DNA of 38,008 nucleotides from positions 1-38,008 of the forward strand of contig CAIWKE010000001.1 of assembly GCA_903913215.1 (NCBI GenBank). The letters are read 5' to 3'. Of the stretch, positions 13,825 through 30,190 are shown in pieces. The stretch is from an uncultured Holophagaceae bacterium (GTDB lineage: Bacteria; Acidobacteriota; Holophagae; Holophagales; Holophagaceae). Under the pieces are notes generated by a model. The model saw nothing but the letters and a program-made list of their open reading frames with translations, did no database searches and was not told the origin of the DNA. The first letter of the stretch is position 1. Every line of letters begins with the position of its first letter. The position numbers and the translations under genes were made by a program.

Positions 13825-13955
13825 AACCCGCATTCTCAGGAAGCTGGAGGATCGCATTCTTCTAACTGCGGTCGCACTTGCCCTTAGCCGGTGGCCCCCT
13901 TTAGGTCCGCTGCGGTTATGCTGGAGGTTGCCCTGAAAGGTTCCCGCGTTTGTCT

Positions 13956-14825
13956 ATGAGAGTTGTCCGCTCTATTGCTGATCTCCGTGCCCTGCTTCGT
14001 CCCCTGAAGGCGGAAGGCAAGCGGATCGGATTTGTGCCCACCATGGGCTTCCTGCACGAGGGCCACGGGGCCCTCATCCGCCAGAGTGCAGCTCGCTGTG
14101 ACGCCACGGTTGTATCTATCTTCATTAATCCCACGCAGTTCGGCCCCAGCGAAGACCTGGCCAACTACCCCCGGGACCTGGAGCGGGACCAGAACCTCTG
14201 CCTGGAGGCGGGCACCTCGGTACTCTTCATGCCGGACGTCAATGAGATCTACCCCACGGGCTTCCAGACCCATGTGGAACCCGGTCGCCTGGCCGAGACC
14301 CTTTGCGGGCGCTTCCGCCCGGGACACTTCCGGGGCGTGGCCACGGTGGTGGCCAAGCTCTTCAACATCGTCCAGCCGGACCTGGCCTTCTTCGGTCAGA
14401 AGGACCTGCAGCAGACCGTGGTGGTCCGCCGCATGGCCCGGGACCTGAACATGCCCGTGGACCTGGTGGTGGTACCTACCATTCGTGAGGCCGACGGCCT
14501 CGCCCTCAGCAGCCGCAACATCTACCTCAACGAGGATGCCCGTGGTCGGGCCCTGCAGCTTAGCGAGGCCCTGCTGGCCGCCAAGGCCGCCTTCGACGGG
14601 GGTGAGCGTGAGGCGGACAAGCTCCTGAAGCTGGCCTACAGTGCCCTGGCCGGTGTGGACTCGGTGCAGTACCTGGAGCTGGTGGACGTCCAGAACCTGG
14701 AGCCCATCCAAGGCCCCGTGGACAAGGCCGCCGCCCTCTGCGTCGCCGCCTATGTGGGCAGCACCCGGCTCATCGACAATGTCCTGCTGAGCCCTTCGGC
14801 TGGGGATATCACCCAGAAGAGCTAG
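13956..14825 (+). CDS. panC: Pantoate--beta-alanine ligase
   Basis: PanC activates pantoate with ATP and joins it to beta-alanine to give pantothenate. The product (289 residues; family about 280) has the nucleotidyltransferase signature VPTMGFLHEGH (H34 and H37), FINPTQFGPSED, GHFRGVATVVAKLFNI, the FFGQKD motif and LSSRNIYL near the KMSKS-like loop. The start is ATG 13956; a TTG two codons upstream (13950) has better spacing from AAAGG at 13936-13940 and may be the real initiator. The gene follows panB closely. Its 3' neighbour is a toxin-antitoxin remnant rather than panD, which supplies the beta-alanine. Confidence 0.96.
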   Translation: MRVVRSIADLRALLRPLKAEGKRIGFVPTMGFLHEGHGALIRQSAARCDATVVSIFINPTQFGPSEDLANYPRDLERDQNLCLEAGTSVLFMPDVNEIYPTGFQTHVEPGRLAETLCGRFRPGHFRGVATVVAKLFNIVQPDLAFFGQKDLQQTVVVRRMARDLNMPVDLVVVPTIREADGLALSSRNIYLNEDARGRALQLSEALLAAKAAFDGGEREADKLLKLAYSALAGVDSVQYLELVDVQNLEPIQGPVDKAAALCVAAYVGSTRLIDNVLLSPSAGDITQKS

Positions 14826-14927: not shown

Positions 14928-14961
14928 ATGTATCCCATGGTTTACATATCGTGAGCCATGG
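14928..14961 (+). promoter_or_regulatory. Possible operator at the toxin start
   Basis: ATGTA (14928-14932) and TACAT (14943-14947) form an inverted repeat just before the toxin GTG. CCATGG occurs at 14935-14940 and again at 14956-14961. Toxin-antitoxin operons are usually autorepressed at such sites. The elements are short, so this is tentative. Confidence 0.3.
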
Positions 14962-15265
14962 CTATCGTTTTAAGATAAAGACGATCCTGACCACCGACAA
15001 ATTCGATGCTTGGTTGAGTGGCCTGAAGGATTCGAGGGCAAATAAGCGAATCACGGCCAGGATCCATCGAATGGAGGACGACAATTTCGGTGACTGTGCT
15101 CCCGTTGGCGACGGTGTTTCGGCGTTGAGAATTCATTGCGGGCCAAGCTATCGCGTCTATTTCATCCCGAACGGGATTGAAATCATCATCCTGCTTGCTG
15201 GGGATGACAAGTGCACGCAAGACAAGGACATTCAGGCCGCCATCGACCTTTCGAAGGAACTTTAG
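14951..15265 (+). CDS. HigB/RelE-superfamily (Gp49-like) addiction-module toxin
   Basis: The product (104 residues) matches the phage-derived Gp49 / RelE-StbE killer family: FDAWLSGLKDSRANKRITARI, then GDCAPVGDGVSALRIHCG, YRVYFI and IILLAGDDKCTQDKDI. Family members are ribosome-dependent mRNA interferases; the length is normal. The only start in frame is GTG 14951 (an in-frame TAA lies at 14921), and it has no clear ribosome site. The gene order, toxin first and HTH antitoxin after, is usual for this family. Here the antitoxin frame is broken (see 15266-15559), so the toxin may be weakly expressed, inactive, or held by another antitoxin. Confidence 0.85.
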   Translation: MSHGYRFKIKTILTTDKFDAWLSGLKDSRANKRITARIHRMEDDNFGDCAPVGDGVSALRIHCGPSYRVYFIPNGIEIIILLAGDDKCTQDKDIQAAIDLSKEL

Positions 15266-15559
15266 GAGGAAACCAAGGGACTCAAACTGAACAAATGAAA
15301 ATTTGAGGACTACCTCCGAACCGAGGAGGACATTGCCGAATACTGGGCTGCCTGCCTGATTGAGGGTGGAGACGATCCGGCCTTCCTCACCAAGGCGCTT
15401 GGAGAGATCGCTAGGACTCGGGGCATGTCCCAACTAGCCCGGGACACAGGCATCAGCCGAGAGGGCCTCTATAAGGCCTTGTCTGGCGAGGGCAACCCAG
15501 CGTTTGCAACTGTCCTGAAGGTGATAAACGCGCTCGGGCTCAAGCTACGGGCAAGCTGA
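15266..15559 (+). pseudogene. HigA-type HTH antitoxin with disrupted N-terminus
   Basis: From 15299 the frame reads KFEDYLRTEEDIAEYW, then TKALGEIARTRGMSQLARDT, GISREGLYKALSGEGNPAF and KVINALGLKLRAS, the full Xre-type antitoxin partner of Gp49 toxins. No normal start exists: an in-frame TGA at 15296-15298 cuts off LKLNK, which looks like the family N-terminus, and the nearby ATG at 15295 is one base out of frame and ends after three codons (ATG AAA ATT TGA). A ribosome site TAGGAGG overlaps the toxin stop. Either TGG became TGA or a base was gained in the A run after 15297. The first in-frame ATG is 15425, which would give only 44 residues covering the HTH. Confidence 0.7.
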
Positions 15560-15599
15560 CAAGTCAAAACGGTCTTGCCTCCCATAATGACAATCGGGC

Positions 15600-16409
15600 C
15601 TACCCCTCTATCTCGGAAATATCTGCCGACATAAGGTTTGCGTCTGTTCCTTGGGACTTTTCCCTATGTGCCCGGAAAGCGCGGTGATCATGCTCGGCCA
15701 TGGCAATGACGGTAGGTAGTTTTGGCCAATCATGGCCAAGATTTATTGCTGCAGAATTCAGATGTAATTTAATCGGGTTCCCGTAAGCAAAAAAATCAGC
15801 GTTTCCCCTTGCACCAAGATCTTGGCGACTTGGCGTTTCAAGAATACATAATTTAATTTGGTCAGCAGAAGTAATTTCAGCCAACCAATAGAGCATATTT
15901 GTCGTTGGCAATTTTGGTTCAATTAATATATTTTCATTAGGACCTGAACCACTTTGCGACCCAGTCTTTCTTTTTTCACCAACTAATTCAGGCAAGGTGA
16001 GCCATTTTTTACATATTAAAACATTATTGTTCCATAATCTAAGATGTTTTTTTTGTAACTCAGGATCTATTGAAGTAAAATCTGATTTTTCTACTATTTT
16101 CTCTTCAAACCTAAGTGTTTTTGAATTGAATGTTGCTTTGAGCTTTGATATAAATGCGTCTTGAATTTTATTATCGTATTCAATATACCTCGCCTCTTCA
16201 GTCCGTATCCAGACAGCCCATGCTGATAAGACTTCTTGTGGAAATGGAGTTATTGGTTCCCACCAACCATACATATAGACGCCTGCTTTCCAACGTTCCC
16301 ATATTTTTAAATTTATATCATCAAACCAAAAAGGATAAGTGTCGAAATCATACTTATAATTACTTCCCCGTGCCCAAACCGGAAGAAATTCATTTCTATT
16401 TGTGACCAT
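15600..16409 (-). CDS. Unknown Trp-rich protein from low-GC accessory cassette
   Basis: I do not recognise this protein (269 residues from ATG 16409). It is rich in Trp and other aromatics near the N-terminus (FDTYPFWFDDINLKIWERW, YMYGWWEPI) and polar afterwards; no membrane segment or catalytic motif is evident. The frame extends upstream to 16721, but that part overlaps the relaxase-like gene. ATG 16409 gives a 14-nt overlap with that gene's end at 16396, typical of coupled genes. The DNA is clearly more AT-rich than both flanks, with homopolymer runs, so it was probably acquired from another source. Being third in the 83-residue / MobF-like / unknown cassette, it may act with them. Confidence 0.65.
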   Translation of the reverse strand: MVTNRNEFLPVWARGSNYKYDFDTYPFWFDDINLKIWERWKAGVYMYGWWEPITPFPQEVLSAWAVWIRTEEARYIEYDNKIQDAFISKLKATFNSKTLRFEEKIVEKSDFTSIDPELQKKHLRLWNNNVLICKKWLTLPELVGEKRKTGSQSGSGPNENILIEPKLPTTNMLYWLAEITSADQIKLCILETPSRQDLGARGNADFFAYGNPIKLHLNSAAINLGHDWPKLPTVIAMAEHDHRAFRAHREKSQGTDANLMSADISEIEG

Positions 16410-18258
16410 GAGAGGGGCCCTTTTTCCCAAGATTATTGGTGAGGGGGTCGGTACGTTCCCGATTTGGGTCAATGGTTGGTAAGAGAGAGCTTTTTTTATG
16501 CGACCTTCTCTGACCTGGTTCCGAAAATGGTTGCGGCCCCGATTCGGGCGCTTCGCCCTCTTGAGTCTTTTTTCGCTGAACAGGCCGGGCCCGGGGATGA
16601 AAAACCTCATCTGACTGAAGCGCTGATTCAGCGAGGACACCTGGGAGGTCGAATTGCCTGTCCCGGTATTCTTCCCACCATTGAACGTCTGGAAGACAGG
16701 GGGTGGATTTCTCAATCCCAATGGACCGAATCCATTCGCCTGCCGCCACTACACGACCAAGGCGCCGGAAGACCATTAGATCACCTTGGACACCGATGCC
16801 TGCCATCTTGAGGCGTCCCCGGACCACCGCGGCCGTGGCTGCATTCTCAGAGACCAGAGATTGGAGCAAAGTGAGGGCTTTCTCAATATCCTGCCGCTCC
16901 TTTTGGCCTCGGAGTAGGCGCTCCTTCCCCGCGAGGCTCAATCGGTAGGAGAACGTGCCATGTTCGCGAACATCCTCAAGTATGAAGGCCTTGCGGAGCC
17001 TCTGAAATGTCTCCCGATCCACCAGCGTCTGAGTTGCGAGGTCACGGCTGTCCATGCCAGCGCCGACGAGTTCCAGGGCTTCCTCATACCGCTTGAGCCA
17101 GCAAATCTTTGCCACCAAATCATTTGGTCGGATGTCAGGGAATTTATCCTGCAGCTTGCCACGACGGTATCCGACCAGATCTGAGGCAGGTTTACCCTCG
17201 AGAAATGGAAGGTCTTGCAGACTTGCCTGAACGACTGCCATGGCTGATTCGATTTTTTTCATAACCGGAAGGAGCTTGGATTTGATCCGACCGTCCGTTT
17301 CCAGCAATCCAAGCGTCTTCAGTTTTGCGAGAAACACACCATAGGGCTTGGTTCCGAGCCTCCCCGGAGGCATTTTCCCTGAGTATTCCATTACCAAATC
17401 AAGTTGAACATCAGTGAGGGGTGGGGCGCCAAGTTCCCGTTTCAGTTCTCGATTGCAGAGAATCACGGCCCCTCTTTTCCTGGCAACGGAACCGGGGTAG
17501 ATCACATCCCCATTGGGGCATGTAACTTTCGCACCATTGGAACCGGGCGTTGAACTCATCCCGAGGTCCATCTCCACCAGGTAACCGTGCACGGCTGCTT
17601 CTTCAATGCAGGCCATAGATATCAGATATCTACCGCCGCCTGGCAGGTTGATCTCCAGAACATATGCCGTATTTTCGAACGATCGCCATTTTGAAAAAGG
17701 ATCCAAGACTGGAGAAAAAGTAAACGCGTGAAGGTGGATGTGAATTTCCAATTCATCATTTGTGCCATGAAAGTAGGCAACTGTTAGCGTATCGGCGCGC
17801 CACCGCTCGTAGGTACCATCCTTCCATGTTTTCTTCGCAGCTTGTTTCTGGAGCTCAGCCACATAGGCACGAAGCATAGCCAGTAGAATTTTGTATGCGA
17901 CGGCAGGGTTTCCCTTCAGTGCCTCCGACAATTCGCATGGAAGAGCAATCACGAATTCCTTCGGTGCGCGGAAAAGTCCGGTCCGGGTGAGTTGGGCCCC
18001 CAATGCCGTCATGCCTTGGCAAAGCTGGAAAACGAGCTTGTCAGATGGTTGGCTAAACCGATGGTCTTGACCAACAAGGTGCCAAAGGAATGGGTTTACG
18101 AATACAGGAACAACTTTCCCATTTCGATCGAGGTACCCATCAAGACCAAGAAAAAGCCCAGCTTCACGAGGATTCTGGTGGTGGATCTTCAACTGGGAAA
18201 GAAAGCCGCTAGGACTGTGCCCCAAACTGCCACGAGTAAACCCACCCCAAAACTTCAT
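16396..18258 (-). CDS. MobF relaxase-like HUH protein lacking N-terminal catalytic tyrosines
   Basis: Residues 1-230 of this 620-residue protein resemble the TrwC/TraI (MobF) relaxase domain. TRTGLFRAPKEFVIAL fits the FSAPKSVSL region. H164, H175 and H177 (FHGTNDELEIHIHLHAF) have the same +11/+2 spacing as the metal-binding triad of TraI (H146, H157, H159). SKWRSFENTAYV fits the following KWRAL..... segment. The catalytic tyrosines expected near residues 15-26 are absent: the first tyrosine is in GLDGY, about residue 42. No helicase motifs follow; instead there is a possible winged helix (about 395-440) and a charged tail. The start ATG 18258 overlaps the preceding stop as TGATG, with GGAG eight nt upstream. 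It may be an inactivated relaxase reused as a DNA-binding or nuclease-like factor; that is inference. Confidence 0.6.
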   Translation of the reverse strand: MKFWGGFTRGSLGHSPSGFLSQLKIHHQNPREAGLFLGLDGYLDRNGKVVPVFVNPFLWHLVGQDHRFSQPSDKLVFQLCQGMTALGAQLTRTGLFRAPKEFVIALPCELSEALKGNPAVAYKILLAMLRAYVAELQKQAAKKTWKDGTYERWRADTLTVAYFHGTNDELEIHIHLHAFTFSPVLDPFSKWRSFENTAYVLEINLPGGGRYLISMACIEEAAVHGYLVEMDLGMSSTPGSNGAKVTCPNGDVIYPGSVARKRGAVILCNRELKRELGAPPLTDVQLDLVMEYSGKMPPGRLGTKPYGVFLAKLKTLGLLETDGRIKSKLLPVMKKIESAMAVVQASLQDLPFLEGKPASDLVGYRRGKLQDKFPDIRPNDLVAKICWLKRYEEALELVGAGMDSRDLATQTLVDRETFQRLRKAFILEDVREHGTFSYRLSLAGKERLLRGQKERQDIEKALTLLQSLVSENAATAAVVRGRLKMAGIGVQGDLMVFRRLGRVVAAGEWIRSIGIEKSTPCLPDVQWWEEYRDRQFDLPGVLAESALQSDEVFHPRARPVQRKKTQEGEAPESGPQPFSEPGQRRSHKKSSLLPTIDPNRERTDPLTNNLGKKGPSHGHK

Positions 18259-18509
18259 CAGCCATTCTCCGGACATGCCTTGCGAAGCTGAGTTCGGACC
18301 TTCCTCGCACTGGAAGCTATCAGCAGCGCGAACAGCTGGACATCTTCAAGGTCGGAGCCCTTTGAAGCATCAAGAATCGTTTGCCAGGAATCTGCCACCG
18401 AACCGGTGAGCCTTAGCTTCAATAGAACCGGCGCTGGAGCTGATCCTTTTAGTAGTTTCATGGCTTTCCTCCGTAATGCGGTTAGAAGTTCTTCTCGTGA
18501 TTTCGACAT
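18258..18509 (-). CDS. Small helical hypothetical protein, first gene of the relaxase-like cassette
   Basis: The product (83 residues) starts at ATG 18509 with GAGGG four nt upstream. It is predicted to be helical and basic (REELLTALRRKAMKLLKGS, ARKVRTQLRKA); no family is recognised. The frame could extend to TTG 18635, adding a segment with three Cys (CQYSNCPIRAC), but the ribosome site favours 18509. The stop overlaps the start of the MobF-like gene as TGATG, so the two are translationally coupled and probably work together. Upstream at 18579-18588 is a perfect ATTGCGCAAT palindrome. Confidence 0.6.
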   Translation of the reverse strand: MSKSREELLTALRRKAMKLLKGSAPAPVLLKLRLTGSVADSWQTILDASKGSDLEDVQLFALLIASSARKVRTQLRKACPENG

Positions 18510-18578: not shown

Positions 18579-18588
18579 ATTGCGCAAT
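18579..18588. promoter_or_regulatory. ATTGCGCAAT palindrome upstream of the relaxase-like cassette
   Basis: A perfect 10-bp palindrome lies 70 nt before the start at 18509. Its core TTGCGCAA recurs at 29238, 29962 and 29973 in the second accessory patch, next to an XRE regulator. It may be an operator for a shared regulator. Confidence 0.4.
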
Positions 18589-18635
18589 AAGCACGCCCGG
18601 ATCGGACAATTACTGTATTGACATGTTTCCTTCAA

Positions 18636-19239
18636 TTTCTCCGTAGAGCCACGTATTTGCTGAACATTTCATGTTTGTTTTTGTCGCCAAACGGCTTCCA
18701 CCTTTTGCGCATCTATTGTATTGAGCAGGTTGGTTCGATTGCGCACCTTGTCCACTACCCCAGTCTCCCTTGGGCACACAACGTGGGAGAACCCCTTGGG
18801 CATTGCTCTAAGGAAAGCGGGAGGAAACCACATCGAGGGTGCCAAGAGAAGGGACTGTAGGTCGCCTTCCATTACCCCTCATAGGTGAGGGCTTCCTGGA
18901 AGTTCATGTCCGCCACCGCCATCGTGGCGTCCAAGCAAATTGAGGAGGCACCGGCACTCTCATCCGGGAATCGGCCTTCAATCACCCGAACGGGCAAAGG
19001 ACATCCTTGGACCAGGGACTCCCAGTGAGCATGATCACCTCTCTGGCTTCAGATGAAATGCAAGGCAGGCATGCGACCTTGGCCATTCTCATAACGGCCA
19101 GAAGACCAATCCCCTCCGTTGGTGTCTGCATTCCCTGTGCCTGGGAGTTGTTCCGAATCCTCGCAGCCTTCAATCCGGACCGGGAAGCATCAACTAATTT
19201 GAGACAGCTGTGATCTGAGTAATCTCCCCGACCCAGCCG
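18636..19239. other. Gene-poor accessory DNA
   Basis: Short open frames occur on both strands here (for example 19007-19213 plus and 18982-19290 minus), but none has a good ribosome site, a recognisable domain or codon use like the neighbours. I see no gene. It joins the relaxase-like cassette to copy 1 of the 150-bp repeat. Confidence 0.5.
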
Positions 19240-19389
19240 CTGCGGAGAGCCGCCGTGGCCATGGACAGCCTGCGGATTGCCTGGCGGCAACGGCCCGCTG
19301 GCCCGCCTTTCAGGTCCTCAGCCTGACCACAGCTCCTTGGAAAACGCTGCGCGTTTCCCACACCTCACCGCAGAAAGCGATCAGCAGCA
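19240..19389 (+). repeat. 150-bp interspersed repeat, copy 1
   Basis: This segment aligns along its whole length with 30040-30190 (roughly 85% identity by eye, one or two single-base gaps), same orientation. Conserved landmarks are CTGCGGAGAGCCGCC, GCCTGCGGATTGCC, CCTGACCACAGC, TTGGAAAACGC and a 3' block CACACCTCACCGCAGAAAGC. Two hairpins keep their stems while the loops vary: TTGCC/GGCAA and GGAAA.CGC/GCG.TTTCC. On the minus strand both copies encode LIAFCGEVWETRSVFQ before the frames diverge, so a decayed coding origin is also possible. It lies 299 bp upstream of panD. Confidence 0.75.
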
Positions 19390-19688
19390 TCATGTGGTTA
19401 GTCCCCCCTAATCTAATAGGTTGGTTCAGACCGGCTAGAGAATTGTAGATGCACCATGAATTGCTCCCTCCAGCCGGTGGCCCAACATGCCGTTGGGAGC
19501 AGGTGGTCACGATCTGTGACCGCCTGCTCTCAAGGGCCAGGTTTTCGGGTGGTGTCTCCCCCAATTGCCCCCAAAGGCATATAGAAATGGCGGCATCTGA
19601 GAAAAAATCGAGGATGGACCTAGGGTAATCCTGGGTCCATTCTTATGCGTTGGCTGGGACTCCCCTTGGAGCCTGGACCGGAGGATGC
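19390..19688. other. Intergenic region upstream of panD
   Basis: Between repeat copy 1 and panD I see no convincing gene. A minus-strand frame at 19310-19564 runs into the repeat but has no recognisable product. The panD promoter is probably here; I cannot place it with confidence. Confidence 0.4.
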
Positions 19689-20087
19689 ATGCTGCGCCAC
19701 TTTCTGCTCGGGAAGATCCATCGCGCCACCGTGACGAGGGCCGATCTGGACTATGTGGGGTCGATCACGCTGGATCCCCTGCTCATTGAAGCCGCCGGCT
19801 TCATGGAGAACGAGAAGATCGACATCTACGACGTGACCAATGGGTCCCGCCTGTCGACCTACGTCATCCCGGGCATCCCCGGTTCCGGCGAGGTCGGCAT
19901 CAATGGTGCTGCCGCCCATCTGGTGCAGGCCGGCGACCTGGTCATCATCGCTGCCTATGGCTGGATGAGCGCCGAGGAGGCCGAGACCGTGGCCCCCAAG
20001 GTGGTCTTCGTGGACGAGCGGAACCGCATCACGGAGCTACGCACTCAGGAACGGACGCCGCTCTGCGTGGCCGCGTTCACGGACTAA
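19689..20087 (+). CDS. panD: Aspartate 1-decarboxylase proenzyme
   Basis: PanD decarboxylates L-aspartate to beta-alanine, the second substrate of PanC. The product (132 residues) is collinear with the family: [16 protein letters not shown] with K9, then YVGSITLD, where self-cleavage between G24 and S25 makes the pyruvoyl cofactor; [10 protein letters not shown] and [12 protein letters not shown] follow. ATG 19689 is preceded by GGAGG at four nt; an in-frame start at 19650 would add 13 residues not found in PanD. Accessory DNA of about 4.9 kb separates it from panB-panC, so it is probably transcribed on its own. The hairpin at 20108-20140 is its likely terminator. Confidence 0.96.
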
Positions 20088-30039: not shown

Positions 30040-30190
30040 CTGCGGAGAGCCGCCGGGGCTATGGCCAGCCTGCGGATTGCCAGGTGGCAACAGGCCGATG
30101 ACCTGCCCTCAGGGTCCTCATCCTGACCACAGCCCACTTGGAAAACGCTTCGCGTTTCCCACACCTCACCGCAGAAAGCGATCAGTAGCA
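30040..30190 (+). repeat. 150-bp interspersed repeat, copy 2
   Basis: Full-length partner of 19240-19389 in the same orientation. The small hairpin TTGCC-AGGT-GGCAA matches TTGCC-TGGC-GGCAA of copy 1, and the 3' hairpin loop reads TTC here against TGC, with stems unchanged. It lies at the right edge of the second accessory patch, 167 bp from the HAD gene, as copy 1 lies near panD. Confidence 0.75.

Follow-up and report, generated by a model that had tools for sequence, protein, structure and literature searches.

We analyzed a stretch of 38,008 nucleotides from an uncultured Holophagaceae bacterium (assembly GCA_903913215.1, contig CAIWKE010000001.1, one of the 41 contigs of its assembly; hereafter the window), which carries a cassette of three overlapping genes, encoded on the minus strand and flanked by panC (13950-14825) and panD (19650-20087), both identified by eye from sequence. 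The cassette is real. Based on structure prediction and family-level sequence comparison, we propose that the 620-residue product of its second gene (P0002) is a relaxase-derived protein of predicted MobF fold, and that the window copy is most likely a nicking-dead derivative of a mobilization module. We take it, at somewhat better than even confidence, for a chromosomal module of DNA processing (mobilization) that has become stranded. The wider proposal, whose prospects we judge evenly poised, is that it belongs to a family of MobF-type relaxases that lack a helicase and have an origin of transfer (oriT) of their own, a family so far confined to the Holophagaceae, lying partly on tRNA-Glu islands as MobF-type integrative mobilizable elements (IMEs), and harboring in eight of 14 loci a further gene nested in the +1 frame. 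The fold, residues, neighbors and hairpins on which these proposals draw come from sequence or prediction.

The relationship to relaxases emerges from the family rather than from the single protein. Searched alone against NCBIfam, P0002 scores 16.4 bits (E 0.0053) for MobF versus 15.9 bits (E 0.0052) for an IS91 transposase, and in Pfam it has no TrwC match at E<=5. Among the 14 family members, 12 match TrwC (PF08751) in Pfam and 13 match MobF (NF041492) in NCBIfam at E<=1, and the 14-member profile retrieves TraI/TrwC from the solved structures at E 1.1e-9. The curated MobF cut-off of 100 bits is missed by P0002 and by all nine relatives scanned (best 63.3), L017 gives no NCBIfam MobF match at E<=0.01, and in the window's own genome the TrwC cut-off is reached only by a paralogue on contig C13. 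A structure model of P0002, derived from four sequences, has a mean predicted local distance difference test score (pLDDT) of 58, with block means of 64-93 across residues 31-230; in Foldseek it retrieves TrwC/TraI over residues 1-263 (best E 4.5e-6). This predicted fold upholds the reading of an earlier note on this DNA, made from the letters alone, that the protein is relaxase-derived. The note had also seen no helicase, and indeed P0002 matches no helicase family; the 14 members together match seven Pfam families at E<=1, none of them a helicase. Because the same gene order recurs in the same genome around a gene 2 paralogue of 35% identity, and because the profile reaches TraI/TrwC at the E-value given above, we regard the resemblance as more than chance.

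The three histidines H164, H175 and H177 lie within FHGTNDELEIHIHLH at spacings of +11 and +2, with RAPKEFVIAL N-terminal and SKWRSF C-terminal to it, in the TraI/TrwC-like arrangement described in the earlier note. Its further remark that residues 1-41 contain no tyrosine is equally accurate: the first tyrosine is Y42, and the position equivalent to the catalytic tyrosine is occupied by Gln22. The other member lacking a tyrosine in this column is L029, which has leucine. Alignments of three relatives to the MobF model (L016 residues 18-202 to model positions 12-197, L022 16-232 to 10-225, L025 22-214 to 13-199) place the tyrosine of each on model position 16, provided that no gap intervenes; Y16 of TraI and Y18 of TrwC are the catalytic residues of those relaxases. 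Both tyrosine codons are two bases away from CAG, and a single-base error therefore cannot account for Gln22. These residue counts (n=14) leave out L020, which is cut by a contig end.

The family comprises 15 loci in 12 of 77 Holophagaceae genomes, in answer to the earlier note's call for a survey of the three-gene order. Across 396 genomes sampled from the phylum Acidobacteriota, matches at E<=1e-10 are confined to the Holophagaceae. Six of 14 loci (the window, L016, L017, L018, L019 and L021) are of a short type, and eight are of a long type with a gene 2 of 742-1223 codons. A scan of genome contigs, relying on two short peptide patterns, returned three loci, and the three contigs that bear names are all from Holophagaceae. 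A plasmid search returned nine weak matches, every one a MobF or relaxase-domain protein, and searches of phages and of viral contigs returned no family match. Literature searches on relaxases of Acidobacteria or Geothrix, on MobF in IMEs and on overlapping genes gave no title naming the family among the matches listed, most subscription papers falling outside their coverage.

We then considered the DNA ahead of the cassettes. In six of 13 upstream regions (L016, L018, L019, L022, L025 and L029) a hairpin is followed directly by G[T/A]AnnGTGCTT on the same strand, 43 to 670 bases ahead of the first cassette gene; the 13 leave out L028 and L020, whose upstream DNA amounts to one base and none, respectively, and include L026 with 619 bases. 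The hairpin arms vary between loci while the single-stranded part is constant, and the L016 hairpin is accompanied by GTAGGGTGCTTA, a putative nic-site sequence, with nic itself predicted about eight nucleotides past the hairpin. According to PMC4814116, published relaxase targets have nic 3' of a hairpin, with eight nucleotides between arm and nic; the hairpin and motif of these six loci would thus be laid out like an oriT. The six sites fold at -10.1 to -15.6 kcal/mol, as against -4.3 (z 0.22) at the matching place in the window. Out of 200 shuffles per site, those folding at least as well number 12 for L018, 11 for L022, two for L029 and none for the other three. The nic pattern, which was derived from the same sites that it counts, finds nine sites versus 2.2 in mononucleotide shuffles, and six of the nine have a strong hairpin. 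The window copy appears to have lost both the cutting residue and the nick-like site.

The neighborhoods of some relatives add an integration context. In L016, L018 and L019 a related tyrosine recombinase lies 0.1 to 2.8 kb behind gene 3 (that of L016 matches Phage_integrase, and those of L019 and L018 are 85% and 64% identical to it), and the 3' end of a tRNA-Glu(TTC) is found about 130-160 nucleotides upstream of the recombinase gene. In L024 a recombinase that is more distant lies about 5 kb upstream. A related recombinase also lies in an 11-kb island (L117) that has the complete tRNA-Glu gene at one end and its 3' end repeated at the other. As a separate observation, L115, L116 and L117 are islands combining a related recombinase with the tRNA-Glu 3' end whose genomes yielded no cassette. 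The empty site of the L016 island was sought in relatives: its right-flank gene occurs in four (67-73% identity), and the left side is not common to them. The VirB4-type model PF03135 has no match in the 12 carrier genomes, its control being positive in one of 14. In the surroundings of the window cassette no integrase was seen by eye among the open reading frames (ORFs) of 14.5-20 kb, and the window contains neither a tRNA-Glu 3' end, searched for with up to three mismatches, nor any tRNA gene.

Because the family has a tyrosine in the catalytic column in 12 of 14 members, an oriT-like hairpin in six of 13 loci, and an integrase with tRNA-Glu in three, it looks like DNA processing for mobilization. 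On the same grounds, the non-transfer role offered in the earlier note, such as interference or replication control, is possible above all for the window copy and unlikely for the family. We infer nicking, transfer, the fold of the gene 1 product and the loss of activity in the window copy along the following lines. The gene 2 protein of the family would be a helicase-less MobF-type relaxase nicking by means of its N-terminal tyrosine and a three-histidine metal site; it would nick just 3' of the hairpin upstream of the cassette and then become covalently attached to the cut strand. The gene 1 product, probably of the ribbon-helix-helix type, would bind near the nick site and regulate the operon, and a helper function may be supplied by gene 3 or, in the long relatives, by the nested gene. 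Islands that have a tyrosine recombinase at tRNA-Glu would carry some of the copies, which would depend on a helper mating apparatus. The window copy, with its ORFs and histidine triad kept and no integrase, attachment (att) site, hairpin or tyrosine, probably does not nick and perhaps binds DNA.

Several points weigh against this proposal. P0002 as a single sequence scarcely exceeds noise for MobF and stands level with IS91, and seven of the 13 upstream regions are without a site combining hairpin and motif. The attL that would mark the other end of the island at tRNA-Glu was not located for L016, L018 or L019. The TrwB-type model PF10412 is matched in three of the 12 carriers (one at the cut-off) and nowhere in the window's own genome, which has no VirB4-type (PF03135) match either, so no helper is in sight; the PF10412 controls are positive in seven of 14 genomes, and its matches therefore need not be conjugative. 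The open frame of 620 codons argues that the window gene has been retained for some purpose. Finally, identity of the window gene 2 to its counterparts in L017 and L021, cassettes at the same panC-panD spot, is only about 34%, as against 80-95% for panC and panD, so the window gene may have arrived by a route other than decay of a tRNA-Glu island.

That spot, at which cassettes occur in three genomes (G000, G012 and G015), each antiparallel to panC, bears on what else the window copy might be. Among the 38 genomes of the genus in which both genes could be paired on one contig and in one direction, the panC-panD gaps with a cassette measure 4867, 4213 and 2972 bases, versus 135-2410 in the other 35. 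An unlikely alternative, in line with the earlier note, is that the protein has been domesticated as a DNA-binding regulator or interference factor, which without its tyrosine would still bind metal and DNA and would block or repress related elements. This would suit a protein whose tyrosine is gone yet whose 620 codons remain open with the histidine triad kept, the glutamine that replaces H175 in L017 at the same spot, and the spot's capacity to take toxin-antitoxin-type genes as well (window 14951-15559, and an AbiE-like pair recognized by eye, L048). Opposed to it are L021, which at the same spot retains both tyrosine and triad, and the three cassette proteins, none of which has a PADLOC match. 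That the window protein is still a nickase through Y42 or another residue we regard as very improbable: the Y42 column is tyrosine in 13 of 14 members, but it lies beyond the canonical column, itself kept in 12, and ahead of the window cassette no stable hairpin is present at the corresponding place. The faintest prospect is a self-moving IS91/ISCR-like HUH transposase element targeting panC-panD, with which the IS91 score, the shared orientation of the three cassettes and the near-identical 14-mers at 15592 and 18522 would agree, but the best fold matches are TrwC/TraI, the HUH motif of the relatives is preceded by their conserved tyrosine, as it is in relaxases, the catalytic tyrosine of IS91 being C-terminal to the motif, and the 14-mers, considered as direct repeats bounding the cassette, were judged chance, two further pairs in the same output being equally good.

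The long relatives add a second aspect to the proposed family. In all eight (L022-L029) the codon-position GC pattern switches from frame 0 to +1 near codon 450, and a +1-frame gene of 241-371 codons is nested in the 3' half of the relaxase gene. Seven of the nested starts are ATG and one is TTG, with an AGGAG/AAGGA-type site upstream; a Shine-Dalgarno sequence thus precedes the start in 8/8, against a background of 10/244, the start codons having been picked after inspection of the upstream sequence and further downstream candidates with a Shine-Dalgarno existing in L024, L026 and L027. Frame 0 has no stops across the nested gene versus 2.1-8.8 expected from synonymous permutation of the nested codons; the chance of an open frame 0 ranges per relative from 0.089 down to 0 of 5000, the relatives not being independent. 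For comparison, 67 ordinary ORFs of 300 codons or more that show a signature in third-position GC (GC3) were taken: one of them has this relative frame open throughout its first 300 codons, and five contain a run above 300 codons somewhere. Identity between L024 and L028 is 47% in the nested frame as against 29% in frame 0 and 33% in the third frame; conservation thus resides in the nested frame, frame 0 being kept open rather than conserved. The L024 genome is recorded as a single contig, so contig breaks are not the cause of nesting there. In L022/L052 two nested ORFs stand in a row: the second one of L052, whose contig is as long as that of L022, has 284 codons with no stops versus 8.2 expected, and it starts with TTG and has no Shine-Dalgarno ahead of it. 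A programmed +1 frameshift in place of a nested gene is conceivable, but the Shine-Dalgarno before all eight starts favors separate initiation. The nested proteins match no Pfam family above cut-off (five of the eight searched) and, as a profile of all eight, no solved structure. Homology between them and gene 3 was considered and rejected at an hhalign probability near 0, and hence we do not equate the two. The window cassette belongs to the short type, and its gene 3 follows gene 2. To our knowledge, the nested genes of the long relatives would rank with the longest conserved genes that have been proposed to lie within another gene on the same strand in bacteria.

Table 1. Features of the cassette and its upstream region in the window.
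Feature	Position	Strand	Remarks
gene 3	15600..16409	-	269 aa, Trp-rich
gene 2 (protein P0002)	16396..18258	-	620 aa; predicted MobF-type relaxase domain, winged helix, low-confidence tail
winged-helix domain, gene 2 residues 382-467	16858..17115	-	predicted MarR/PadR-like, Z up to 9.8; pLDDT about 40-67
relaxase domain, gene 2 residues 1-263	17470..18258	-	predicted MobF fold; VIA Z 16.4, root-mean-square deviation 3.5 over 227 residues to TrwC 1zm5
metal-site histidines H164, H175, H177	17728..17769	-	H164 and H177 in 14/14 members, H175 in 13/14
codon CAG = Gln22	18193..18195	-	Tyr in that column in 12/14 family members (window among the 14)
gene 1	18258..18509	-	83 aa; probably an accessory protein or autoregulator of ribbon-helix-helix type, from a strand-helix-helix pattern seen by eye
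GTGCTTATT	18586..18594	-	possible nic-site remnant in window; no stable hairpin ahead

The three genes are as tightly packed as the earlier note had described, with agreeing coordinates: genes 1 and 2 have one base in common (TGATG) and genes 2 and 3 overlap by 14 nucleotides. The cassette has a GC content of 0.488 versus 0.640 for the remaining window. Relatives of gene 1 precede gene 2 in L016, L018, L019, L021 and L022 (E up to 2.9e-6), and weaker ones were found in L024 (E 0.60) and, as a relative of the latter, in L028. Gene 1 has no family match, with one chance-level Pfam row; against solved structures it gave annexin-type matches only, which were taken as chance. Its ribbon-helix-helix fold is accordingly put forward as probable from the strand-helix-helix pattern. 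Gene 3, in which the tryptophan richness pointed out earlier amounts to 12 residues in 269, has relatives in L016-L020; its alignment leaves out L021:8919-9521, which is not a relative. It has no family match and no usable fold match (model pLDDT 35), the annexin-, hormone- and one VPS72-type rows among solved structures being taken as chance.

Further observations concern the surroundings of the cassettes. Beside that of the window, 14951-15265 and 15299-15559 form a possible toxin-antitoxin pair: the product of the former has a weak Gp49 match (E 0.018, under cut-off), and the latter looks helix-turn-helix-like by eye, its frame beginning without ATG, GTG or TTG. AbiE-like two-gene pairs, recognized by eye, occur at the panC-panD spot of G026 (L048) and beside the L022 cassette. 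Compared with 22 loci, the window spacer has no DNA similarity (E<=1e-3) beyond panC, panD and one dispersed repeat. This repeat, of 177 bp at 19216-19392, is present in L017 and L021 too; it is found again at G000:C38:41392-41559, at window 30040-30190 and, as a short and weak copy, on C25. The 500 bases ahead of the cassette contain TTGCGCAA (window 18580-18587) at each of the three panC-panD loci (window, L017 and L021) and at none of the ten other loci having that much upstream sequence. At L016 8309-8837, upstream of the paralogous cassette, there are 2.4 tandem copies of a 219-bp unit.

MobF relaxases are known mainly as relaxase-helicases of conjugative plasmids; if our proposal is true, they would extend to helicase-free integrative elements in the Acidobacteriota. 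The predicted nic site is open to oligonucleotide testing, the nested genes with their Shine-Dalgarno sequences in all eight long relatives offer a testable case of long overlapping bacterial genes, and the window copy would illustrate a relaxase that has no catalytic residue but whose frame is kept.

Comparable to the MobF relaxases TrwC of R388, TraI of F and TraI of pCU1/pKM101 are the predicted fold of residues 1-263, the +11/+2 histidine spacing, the N-terminal tyrosine of most family members and the hairpin followed by a putative nic site at the six loci. Unlike them, the cassette protein has a predicted winged helix and no helicase and scores under the NCBIfam cut-off, and the window copy lacks the tyrosine, in a genome with no match to a coupling-protein or VirB4-type model. 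In three putatively mobilizable loci (L016, L018 and L019) a predicted relaxase, an oriT-like site, a tyrosine recombinase and a tRNA 3' end come together as in IMEs, and PF03135 has no match in the 12 carrier genomes; in contrast, the window copy has no integrase. A 2017 review (PMC5704250) gives the canonical IMEs then known as having MobP, Q, V or C relaxases, none MobF or MobH. The nested genes recall mobB, which in RSF1010 (IncQ) lies inside the relaxase gene mobA/repB in another frame, as described in PMC2200642. In the long relatives, by contrast, the relaxase is MobF-like and the nested genes run to 241-371 codons; mobB is nonetheless the nearest precedent that we found for them.

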